This document shows positions 29,422 to 34,116 of a stretch of 58,524 nucleotides of DNA, in pieces. Where the stretch lies: the NCBI GenBank assembly GCA_919901565.1, contig CAKKPE010000113.1:1-58524 (forward strand). Direction: 5' to 3'. Origin of the DNA: a bacterium (lineage in GTDB: Bacteria; CG2-30-53-67). The notes below the pieces were generated by a model that was not told where the DNA came from, made no database searches, and saw nothing but the letters and a program-made list of their open reading frames with translations. The position numbers were made by a program, and so were the translations under genes. Positions within the stretch are counted from its first letter, which is position 1. The number at the start of each line of letters is the position of its first letter.

Positions 29422-30020
29422 ACCTTTTTCTGCACCCCACGTTCAGATGGACATCTCCGGACAACAGCGTTTCAAAAGACCAGCAATGTCTGAGAATATA
29501 AAATGACGGCTGTAGTGATTGTTCTCCTAATATTAATGATACTTTAGCAACAATAAACCTGTCAAGAATATGTTTTATGTTTCTTGACTCCATTTTTAAA
29601 AAGCGCTTTATTATGGTCATGAAACATGATAGTGTTTAAAAAACTTTAGGTTCTTTCGTGAGAAAGTTGAATGGCTATATAAATTAAAAATAAAGAATCA
29701 AAGATCAAAATGACAGCGCAAAAATCAAATATGCATTTTCAAGACGGGTTCTGATAATGATTCATTTTAACTCAAGTTTATTGAAGTACAATAGAAAGGG
29801 GAGATCTCCCGAGTTATTCGTCATCATGTGCTTCGGCGTCCTGCCTGATTGGGAACTTATATTTTGAATCCAGGGCTGGCTTTCCAAAAGAGGCTGCACC
29901 ATTTTTACATTTTGATTTGTCAATTTGATTTTTTTAATTTCTGCGTGGTTCAACTTAAACAGGGTTCATCGGAATATCCTGATATCGGGCTGTTGACCAT
30001 ATTGCGAGGGGCCTTGAATC
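29422..30020. other. 599-bp intergenic region
   Basis: No gene is visible. It holds the promoter of the receiver-DnaJ gene. Around 29690-29720 it has a dispersed AT-rich repeat (AATCAAAGATCAAAATGACA) whose inverted form (CATTTTGATTTGTCAATTTG) appears near 29909. The remainder is AT-rich and unremarkable. Confidence 0.5.
29536..29565 (-). promoter_or_regulatory. Promoter of the receiver-PATAN-DnaJ gene
   Basis: Minus-strand TTGACA (29565-29560) and TATCAT (29541-29536) are 18 bp apart, about 115 bp before the start codon at 29421. Confidence 0.6.
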
Positions 30021-31067: not shown

Positions 31068-31370
31068 CGGCTTTGCCTCCCCCTCATAATCCATATGATC
31101 GAGGACATGGTCTTCCACCACGATGGCCACCCGCCAAGAGTACAGAAAGTGCTTGTCTATCGAAGCGATTCGATTTTCTGGTCCTTATTGGAAAGTCCGG
31201 CTTCTTCTTGAGACTACGCCTGGGCAGTATTCAATTTCCACCTCACCTCAATCCCCAAGGGGAGAGGAAGTTCAAACATCCCTTCTCCCCATAGGGGAGA
31301 AGGTCAGGATGAGGGGGTGACACCAAAAGACACTACAAGGTTGACACGACACTGCGCTTCAAATGAAAAT
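31068..31370. other. Intergenic region with a perfect palindrome
   Basis: About 300 bp without a convincing gene lie between the small exported protein and the 3' end of ssrA. At 31281-31303 CCTTCTCCCC and GGGGAGAAGG form a perfect 10-bp inverted repeat around ATA. Similar palindromes occur at 32758-32783 and 37930-37961. It may end the ssrA transcript, since no U-rich terminator follows the CCA. Confidence 0.55.
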
Positions 31371-31387
31371 TGGTGGAGGCGGCGGGA

Positions 31388-31670
31388 CAGCCGATCCGTA
31401 TCTTTCGATACGGGCTGGACTATACCTTCATCCTGTGGTATCAGGATGCGGGGCGTCTTATTCACCACATGGAATCTTGCCCCTTGGTGAATCCTAGTAC
31501 CGGCTCGGTCCTGTCTGACTCAGCCGGCCTATGAGTCTCTACAGGGCAGGCCTGAGGTTGGCCCTCTTCCTACCCCTCGGTATTGCCTTAGCAGGCCTTC
31601 CTGCCGTAGGTTTCACCGATGTGAGCCCCGTTATCACTTTACCCTCACGGGTAAAGGCGACCCTTTGTTG
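31388..31670 (-). ncRNA. Group I intron in the tmRNA T-loop
   Basis: A 283-nt intron without an open reading frame. It follows an exon U and ends in G, as group I introns do. The exon CGAT can pair with intron GTCG (P1, with the U-G wobble at the splice site). P2 is CTTTACCC-GTGA-GGGTAAAG. P4 is CCTAC/GTAGG enclosing P5 GGCAGG/CCTGCT. TAAGGCAATACCGAG matches the conserved J4/5-P5-P6 region. P7 pairs GACT of GTAGAGACTC with AGTC of GGTATAGTCC. P9 is CCGTATC-GAAA-GATACGG, with a terminal G at 31388. The core resembles subgroup IC3. No homing endonuclease is encoded, so it is a minimal ribozyme. Group I introns at the tmRNA T-loop have been described in other bacteria. Confidence 0.92.
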
Positions 31671-31886
31671 ATCGAACCCGCGTCCGGAAATGGTCCGCCA
31701 CGACATCTACATGCTTACCCTTGGATTTAGGATTCGCCCGGAGGCACGCCCCAGGGGCGGGCTTAGCCTCTTCGCTATCTCCTAATGTTTCGCCTTTGGG
31801 GCCGGAGCCCTCCCCGCTTGGCTATCCTGTGAATATTGCGCCCTGACTCCCCCCCACAGGCAGGAGAAAGAGGACGGGTTGCTTAA

Positions 31887-31928
31887 TTAAGCAGCCAGTG
31901 CCAGTTCGTTGTTGGCAGTTGTGTTTTC
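31887..31928 (-). other. tmRNA proteolysis-tag reading frame
   Basis: Thirteen codons plus TAA, minus strand, reading ENTTANNELALAA when started at GAA. The ending ALAA is the degradation signal recognised by ClpXP-type proteases. The exact resume codon is inferred. A second TAA (TTAATTAA) backs up the stop. Confidence 0.8.
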
Positions 31929-32027
31929 CCGATTGTTTAACGAGCCACCGGGACCTCGGCATGCAGCCGGGGCTTTCTCACCCCCGTCGAGACCAATCGC
32001 CCCCCTTTTTTTAGATTACGTAATATA

Positions 32028-32899: not shown

Positions 32900-33361
32900 A
32901 TGGAAGACAAAAAGATCGTCTGCACCAACCGCAAGGCCCACAGGGATTACTTCCTGGTGGAAAAATACGAGGCGGGCATGATCCTGACCGGAACCGAAGT
33001 CAAATCCCTGCGGAATGGACAGGCCAATCTCAAAGACAGTTATGCAGGATTAAAGGGGGAAGAGCTCTACCTCTATCAGATGCATATCAGCCCCTACACA
33101 CACGGGAATATCTCCAACCACGATCCCATCCGGACCCGCAAGCTTCTCATGCACAAGAAGGAGATCCGCCGTATGATCGGCAAGATTAAGGAGAAAGGGT
33201 TCTCCCTGATCCCGGTAAGCGTCTATTTTTCCCGGGGCCGGGCCAAGGTGGAACTCGCCCTGGCCAAGGGGAAACGCGAGTACGACAAGCGAGAGGACAT
33301 CAAGAAGCGGGAAGAGACACGGGAGATCGAAAAGGCAATGAAATCAAGACGTCATAGGTAA
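32900..33361 (+). CDS. smpB: SsrA-binding protein SmpB
   Basis: A 153-residue SmpB beginning MEDKKIVCTNRKAHRDYFLV. It contains YEAGMILTGTEVKSLRNGQA, LKDSYAGLKGEELYLYQMHI, NHDPIRTRKLLMHKKEI and GRAKVELALAKGKREYDKRE. It ends with the basic tail EKAMKSRRHR that occupies the mRNA channel during trans-translation. It binds the tRNA-like domain of tmRNA and is essential for ribosome rescue. The ATG at 32900 matches the family N-terminus and has AGGGG 5 nt upstream. Its proximity to ssrA (about 0.9 kb, opposite strand) makes this a compact rescue locus. Confidence 0.97.
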   Translation: MEDKKIVCTNRKAHRDYFLVEKYEAGMILTGTEVKSLRNGQANLKDSYAGLKGEELYLYQMHISPYTHGNISNHDPIRTRKLLMHKKEIRRMIGKIKEKGFSLIPVSVYFSRGRAKVELALAKGKREYDKREDIKKREETREIEKAMKSRRHR

Positions 33362-33455: not shown

Positions 33456-33698
33456 ATGAGAGTGGCAAATACGGTTGAATTAAAGAACAAAACGAATGAA
33501 CTGCTGCGTGAGGTGGTTAAGGGCGAACCCGTCATCATCACCTATAGAGGTAAACCGGCGGCATCTCTTACCCGGCTTACGGAAGACGATCTTGAAGATT
33601 TTATCATTGAGAACAGCCCGGCTATACGGAAGAAGATAGCAAAAGCCGAAGCGGATATAAAAGCCGGCAGAGTTATTTCTCTGGATGACTACCTATGA
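33456..33698 (+). CDS. Type II antitoxin, Phd/YefM family
   Basis: An 80-residue antitoxin. The N-terminal DNA-binding part reads MRVANTVELKNKTNELLREV followed by VKGEPVIITYRGKPAASLTR, the Phd/YefM fold. The C-terminus (IRKKIAKAEADIKAGRVISL) should bind and neutralise the toxin. It has a consensus promoter, an operator palindrome and AGGAGG 8 nt upstream. The stop codon TGA is immediately followed by a 126-bp palindromic element that separates it from the toxin gene; such pairs normally overlap or abut. Confidence 0.9.
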   Translation: MRVANTVELKNKTNELLREVVKGEPVIITYRGKPAASLTRLTEDDLEDFIIENSPAIRKKIAKAEADIKAGRVISLDDYL

Positions 33699-33824
33699 GA
33701 CGGCAAAGTAAAAAGCTCCGGATGCAAGGAGCGCAAGTCCTGAGGAATGAGGCGTACTTACAGCTACGCTGCAATGACGAAGGATGAAGCGCAACGCCGC
33801 AGACGGACTTTTTACGAAGCCGTC
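33699..33824. mobile_element. 126-bp palindromic element between antitoxin and toxin
   Basis: The ends are terminal inverted repeats: GACGGCAAAGTAAAAAGCTC at the left and, reverse-complemented, GACGGCTTCGTAAAAAGTCC at the right. A truncated copy lies at 13622-13659. It begins at the base after the antitoxin stop codon and ends 7 bp before the toxin ATG. It encodes no protein, so it is a MITE-like or extragenic palindromic repeat. Confidence 0.82.
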
Positions 33825-33831
33825 AAGATTA

Positions 33832-34116
33832 ATGGATGAATTCATAGTCCGATTGGCCCGCGCAGCAATAGATGACCTAAATGACATTCCAAAAGCCTTC
33901 CGCGATCAGGTCATCTCAGAGATAAAATCTCTTTCCATAAATCCATTGCCCACCGGAAGCCGAATCAAGAAACTGAAAGGATTCAAACCGCCTCTCTACA
34001 GGCTTCGTTCCGGAGATTACAGGGTTCTATACAGATTGCAAAGCCATAATATAACCATTATGAGAATTATTAACAGAAAAGAGCTCGAAAAGATCATCAA
34101 GCGGGCGAACCTGTAG
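33832..34116 (+). CDS. Type II toxin, RelE/ParE family
   Basis: A 94-residue RelE/ParE-fold toxin beginning MDEFIVRLARAAIDDLNDIP. It contains KKLKGFKPPLYRLRSGDYRV, LYRLQSHNITIMRIINRKE and a basic C-terminus. Related toxins cleave mRNA on the ribosome or inhibit gyrase; this sequence is closer to RelE than ParE by its LYRLRSGDYRVLY core. No Shine-Dalgarno precedes the ATG at 33832 because the palindromic element lies there. An alternative ATG at 33784, inside the element, would add 16 residues. Expression may therefore be altered relative to the ancestral pair. Confidence 0.88.
   Translation: MDEFIVRLARAAIDDLNDIPKAFRDQVISEIKSLSINPLPTGSRIKKLKGFKPPLYRLRSGDYRVLYRLQSHNITIMRIINRKELEKIIKRANL

Follow-up and report, generated by a model that had tools for sequence, protein, structure and literature searches.

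A group I intron in the tmRNA T-loop of a bacterium, with Nitrospirota relatives that adjoin a free-standing LAGLIDADG gene

Introduction

What interrupts the tmRNA gene of this bacterium, how did it come to be there, and what does it mean for ribosome rescue? The locus lies on a contig of 58,524 nucleotides (CAKKPE010000113.1 of assembly GCA_919901565.1; GTDB lineage Bacteria; CG2-30-53-67), the whole of which was analysed and is called the window below. A sequence-only reading had proposed that a compact group I intron splits the T-arm of ssrA at this locus. Intron-form tmRNAs are a recognised class, with 883 sequences from 21 phyla, mostly interrupted at the position seen here (PMC11915505).

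Results

The ssrA (tmRNA) gene occupies 32004 to 31371 on the minus strand, CCA end included, and is the sole ssrA found in the genome, the assembly of which is 97% complete. The Rfam tmRNA model matches the gene at 131.7 bits, with an alignment that breaks off within the T-loop, and ARAGORN finds no tmRNA when given the window with the gene unspliced. When the insert at 31388-31670 is excised, ARAGORN calls a complete 351-nt tmRNA with the tag ANNELALAA and an encoded CCA; acceptor stem, tag frame and CCA are all present, and the restored T-arm and acceptor are those that the sequence-only reading had predicted. The 5' exon terminates in GCGGGTTCGAT, and TCCCGCCGCCTCCACCA resumes 283 bases on. 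The split point therefore falls between TTCGAT and the final T of the loop, and the insert is exactly 283 nt long with G as its last base, bounds that agree with those first proposed. We read this split as T-loop position 7. It is one of the four published T-loop subsites, and the earlier remark that the site is not new is borne out by its match to published tmRNA introns (PMC11915505). The features of the locus are as follows.

31671-32004, minus: ssrA 5' exon, with the acceptor 5' strand, tag frame (ANNELALAA), pseudoknots, T-stem 5' strand and loop TTCGAT (Rfam, ARAGORN)
31388-31670, minus: group I intron, 283 nt, with no endonuclease frame (Rfam, covariance model, alignment)
31371-31387, minus: ssrA 3' exon TCCCGCCGCCTCCACCA, with the final loop T, T-stem, acceptor and CCA (sequence, ARAGORN)
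32900-33358, plus: smpB, encoding the tmRNA partner protein

The intron had been described as lying beside smpB, a description that needs correcting: the two genes are about 0.9 kb apart on opposite strands, with moaC between them. Directly behind smpB is a pair resembling a Phd/YefM antitoxin and a ParE toxin (33456-34116, plus). Dispersed repeats with many copies in the genome occur at 31229-31371 (about 125 bp) and 29640-29935 (about 290 bp); the former abuts the end of ssrA and is present in related genomes too. We considered an assembly artefact and rejected it, as the insert is a complete ribozyme that stops exactly at the exon and the upstream DNA is collinear with that of G001, a genome of the same genus.

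The insert is almost certainly a group I intron. Rfam RF00028 (Intron_gpI) matches 31396-31680 on the minus strand at 38.7 bits (E 2.9e-8), which is under the gathering score of 50, a database threshold and no defining trait. With the window copy left out, ten relatives were used to build a dedicated covariance model (model R1), which matches 31382-31676 at 212.9 bits (E 4.9e-71). The group I core that a covariance search had been expected to reveal was thus found. The fold has a z-score of -6.7, and none of 200 shuffles was equally stable (the folded stretch, 31392-31674, lies 4 nt off the intron). The insert has a P3-P9 core that includes P7, its secondary structure covaries, U at position -1 pairs with G in P1, and the intron has its terminal G. 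The proposed structure, which runs from P1 to P9.0 and includes the P3/P7 and P3/P8 crossings, comprises these elements, all on the minus strand.

31658-31674: P1, exon CGAU plus intron C pairing with GGUCG (31662-31658); all 11 introns have the U-1.G wobble
31637-31656: P2 hairpin, 8 bp, GTGA loop; all pairs covary in relatives
31449-31630: P3, 31630-31625 with 31454-31449 (CGGGGC/GCCCCG), invariant
31577-31619: P4 (31619-31614 with 31582-31577) around P5 (31610-31608 with 31588-31586)
31544-31575: P6 (31575-31569 with 31550-31544) and P6a
31418-31537: P7, the guanosine-site helix, GACU 31537-31534 with AGUC 31421-31418, invariant
31460-31527: P7.1 (31527-31522 with 31505-31500) and P7.2 (31492-31486 with 31466-31460), covarying
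31430-31447: P8 hairpin
31389-31416: P9 (GAAA loop) within a P9.0-like helix (AGC/GCU) that covaries, followed at 31388 by the terminal G

The P2 hairpin with its GTGA loop, the P9 hairpin with its GAAA loop and the GACT/AGTC pairing of P7 had all been noticed in the sequence-only reading and have their places in this structure. The segment TAAGGCAATACCGAG, which had been taken for J4/5-like, spans P5'-J5/4-P4' instead. To assess the structure we aligned 11 introns, namely the window copy and ten fully delimited introns from Nitrospirota. Two-sided changes occur at 33 of the 77 proposed pairs. The covariation score is 0.321; sliding the partners by 1-3 columns gives 0.05-0.11. Of the cells, 93.2% are paired versus at most 47.5% with partners slid, a measure that is favoured by the structure having been drawn on the window copy. 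The covariation is carried by P2, P7.1, P7.2, P8, P9 and the P9.0-like helix; the core helices P3 and P7 are invariant and contribute no support of this kind. The presence of P7.1 and P7.2 suggests a subgroup IA-like intron. Repeat-like hairpins were seen in the peripheral loops (P5, P8) of two of the Nitrospirota tmRNA introns (CCCTCTCCCC..GGGGAGAGGG and TACCCCC..GGGGGATA; L148 1482-1818 and L151 1373-1733).

The first such relative, at locus L006 in a Nitrospirota metagenome-assembled genome (G060), has an ssrA split at the identical point. With the window intron as query, matches were found in 12 of 396 Nitrospirota genomes, G060 included. Fully delimited introns are present in ten of these, each of which follows TTCGAT and has G as its last base, ahead of TCCC; the eleventh genome (G119, L150) has an ssrA intron with masked stretches, and the twelfth (G453, L158) gives a weak match with no ssrA seen. 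In all relatives read, the insertion site is the same. The description of the window copy as minimal does not hold, its size being ordinary among relatives of 256-349 nt and published founding tmRNA introns that average 293 bp (PMC11915505). A search of the seven other genomes in the window's class with model R1 found no intron of this kind, and phage and plasmid records gave no similar DNA. Ten exact matches to the core motif GTAGAGACTCATAGG in viral contigs were all read and discarded, none being in an intron context.

We asked whether the intron is a recent arrival or an old resident. The ssrA gene of G001 is uninterrupted and shares 346 of 351 exon bases with that of the window (98.6%; 5 differences), and the SmpB proteins of the two genomes are 96% identical. 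A scan of named genomes gave SmpB relatives no closer than about 63% identity. In two further genomes of the family, G003 and G005, ssrA is uninterrupted as well. A tree of the introns groups the window copy with those of L006 and L148 from Nitrospirota (98/98), whereas in a tree of the exons the window ssrA pairs with that of G001 (100/100) and the Nitrospirota copies stand separate. Identity to the nearer relatives is 68-76% across the intron and 65-68% across the exons. Because a same-genus genome lacks the intron and the intron itself groups with those of Nitrospirota, it was probably gained recently by horizontal transfer from the Nitrospirota-intron lineage, with the donor unsampled. The date and donor of such a transfer are loose, since no close donor emerged and the branch of the window intron is long (0.5).

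Alternatively, the family could have had the intron ancestrally, with precise losses in G001 and in the genus of G003 and G005. Precise loss does seem possible, given that in one Nitrospirota genome (G124, described below) a broken endonuclease gene follows an ssrA that is intact and intronless, and the long intron branch would also fit. Downstream of ssrA the window and G001 are not collinear, so that an exchange at the ssrA 3' end is conceivable, and G001 might once have had an intron-bearing end that was replaced by a rearrangement there. We nonetheless think ancestry unlikely: it requires at least two losses in place of one gain, the class includes two more distantly related genomes, neither with the intron, and the intron tree unites the window copy with Nitrospirota introns. 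Gain is the simplest reading, with ancestral presence and at least two losses a possible one. An integrative element at the G001 ssrA was also considered as the cause of the intron's absence and dismissed, as the 2.8 kb downstream contain ordinary-looking genes and no integrase that we recognised.

The intron has no endonuclease frame, as the sequence-only reading had stated, and a LAGLIDADG_3 search of the whole window genome (G000) gave no match, nor is there any trace of an endonuclease in the window, within the intron or beside it. In seven Nitrospirota relatives the picture differs. At L006, a 145-aa open reading frame matching Pfam LAGLIDADG_3 and LAGLIDADG_1 begins 58 nt past the ssrA CCA; it shares the strand of ssrA and lies outside the intron. 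Across the six loci measured, the start lies 58-88 nt beyond the CCA. When 13 genomes were searched with LAGLIDADG_3, the sole match in each of five Nitrospirota genomes was directly behind ssrA. A profile built from six of the Nitrospirota proteins matches 9 of the 396 genomes, and in all nine the gene is beside ssrA or its remnant. An intron-split ssrA precedes it in seven, one of which (G363) has a shortened frame. The other two are fossil stages: G124 (L189) has an intact intronless ssrA and then a truncated endonuclease copy with stops, and in G313 (L190) the 3' half of the intron, the 3' exon and the endonuclease survive as a decayed remnant. The co-occurrence of intron and endonuclease in seven genomes gives a Fisher p of about 1e-10, a value that overstates independence because the genomes are related.

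The endonuclease has one LAGLIDADG motif and about 145-153 aa, and its profile resembles I-MsoI; its viral relatives are distant only. I-MsoI is homodimeric. The T-arm sequence GCGGG-TTCGATT-CCCGC forms an inverted repeat, which, to judge from its symmetry, is a plausible target for a dimeric endonuclease.

It could be argued that these LAGLIDADG genes are mere passengers of the ssrA 3' flank, unrelated to the intron. The flank is a common integration site to which mobile DNA is drawn (general knowledge; PMC11915505), the gene sits outside the intron, and it was not seen in 5 of the 12 intron-matching genomes, some of these being short contigs or weak matches. We find this account doubtful, though worth keeping in mind, in view of the family likeness to the homing endonuclease I-MsoI and of the association itself: every endonuclease genome has the gene beside ssrA or a remnant, and the intron is in seven of those nine compared to 12 of 396 overall. 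We lean slightly towards a different interpretation of these sequences, namely that the tmRNA T-loop introns of this clade cross phyla as a split homing unit, consisting of an endonuclease-free ssrA intron and a separate homodimeric LAGLIDADG gene behind ssrA that would cut the palindromic T-arm of an uninterrupted ssrA. On this interpretation the window would record the intron's recent arrival, unaccompanied by the enzyme, in a phylum new to it, and G124 would be a fossil stage that has shed the intron and keeps a broken enzyme gene.

Does ribosome rescue in this organism depend on splicing, as had been claimed? For trans-translation the claim stands: because the only ssrA found is intron-split and smpB is intact, trans-translation should need splicing. 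No candidate reached the cut-off in an ArfB search of the genome. For rescue in general the claim is weakened by a stand-alone 144-aa GGQ protein, encoded near 30014 of G000:C14 (L194 1246-1680, minus), which resembles release-factor catalytic domains and, on that resemblance, might act as a back-up rescue factor. Furthermore, G002 and G004, of the same family and another genus (93% and 89% complete), yielded neither an ssrA nor an smpB match, which suggests that their genus has lost trans-translation. One might go further and suppose that the intron is degenerate and non-splicing, that ssrA is a pseudogene and that the cell rescues its ribosomes otherwise; besides the GGQ protein and the two genomes with no ssrA or smpB found, the RF00028 score under the gathering score could be cited in favour. 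This is very improbable. The exons and smpB are as well preserved as the comparison with G001 indicates, relatives' model R1 scores the intron at over 200 bits, and all proposed helices are intact with zero unpaired positions in the window copy, on which the structure was drawn. We infer from the structure that the intron is a functional ribozyme and that it splices.

The same genome contains a second group I intron. The only tRNA-Asn(GUU) gene found in it carries a group I intron of 255 nt (92.7 bits to RF00028; L001 1452-1781, minus, G000:C142) in the anticodon loop, between CTGT and TAA, and ARAGORN reads a tRNA-Asn once this is removed. The same gene is split in G002, from a different genus (L119 1452-1781, G002:C64), and intact in G003.

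Discussion

The data can be accommodated in the following model. The ribozyme separates nucleotides 6 and 7 of the T-loop in the sole ssrA, and its core would fold within the precursor RNA. P1, formed by exon CGAU and intron GUCG with U.G at the cut, would set the 5' site, which exogenous GTP bound in P7 would attack; the freed 5' exon would then attack after the terminal G, so that the joined exons restore GCGGG-TTCGATT-CCCGC, and end processing would give a normal tmRNA. In Nitrospirota the intron appears to travel with the free-standing I-MsoI-like LAGLIDADG gene just behind ssrA. The enzyme, probably a homodimer, may cut the intronless T-arm at its inverted repeat, after which repair of the break would copy the intron plus the adjacent endonuclease gene. 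The window copy would have lost the endonuclease or never received it.

In 2002 Williams reportedly described tmRNA genes with a group I intron at T-loop position 7. The window element is of a known kind at a known site, because its insertion point, boundary rules and length match published T-loop introns. It shares with them the insertion point, the preceding U, the terminal G, a similar length and, for the most part, freedom from endonuclease, and no structural difference from them is established. The apparent novelty lies in its relatives from another phylum, which adjoin a separate homing-endonuclease gene just behind ssrA. The published survey reports endonuclease genes inside introns only, after P9 or in P7.1 (PMC11915505), and the free-standing downstream gene is absent from it; our literature search, which took in few subscription papers, found no report of an endonuclease gene downstream of an intron-split ssrA. 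Also new are an intronless same-genus sister with near-identical exons, set against an intron of Nitrospirota affiliation, and the split tRNA-Asn gene. The window is unusually well placed: it has that sister gene, its relatives support the structure through covariation, and relatives also connect the intron with an endonuclease gene outside it. The downstream gene suggests a route by which such introns spread, and offers a testable answer to how introns of which only about 4% carry an endonuclease (PMC11915505) have yet reached 21 phyla, in that the enzyme may be encoded next door, beyond the view of intron-confined surveys.

Several known systems resemble parts of this arrangement. Bacterial tRNA anticodon-loop introns are ribozymes of the same class and also interrupt a structured RNA gene, but their host RNA differs and their similarity is distant (61-66 bits to model R1). 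The homodimers I-MsoI and I-CreI likewise have one LAGLIDADG motif, and the Nitrospirota protein combines this with its length and I-MsoI profile match; unlike theirs, its gene lies outside any intron, behind ssrA. The arrangement also fits collaborative homing, described for phages, in which a free-standing endonuclease cuts the insertion site of an endonuclease-free intron, as in cyanophage psbA (PMC3984707). The likeness consists of an endonuclease-free intron and a separate homing endonuclease gene nearby; the differences are that here the setting is bacterial chromosomes and a tmRNA gene, that the enzyme is of the LAGLIDADG family with a putative target, and that the window genome has the intron without the partner gene.
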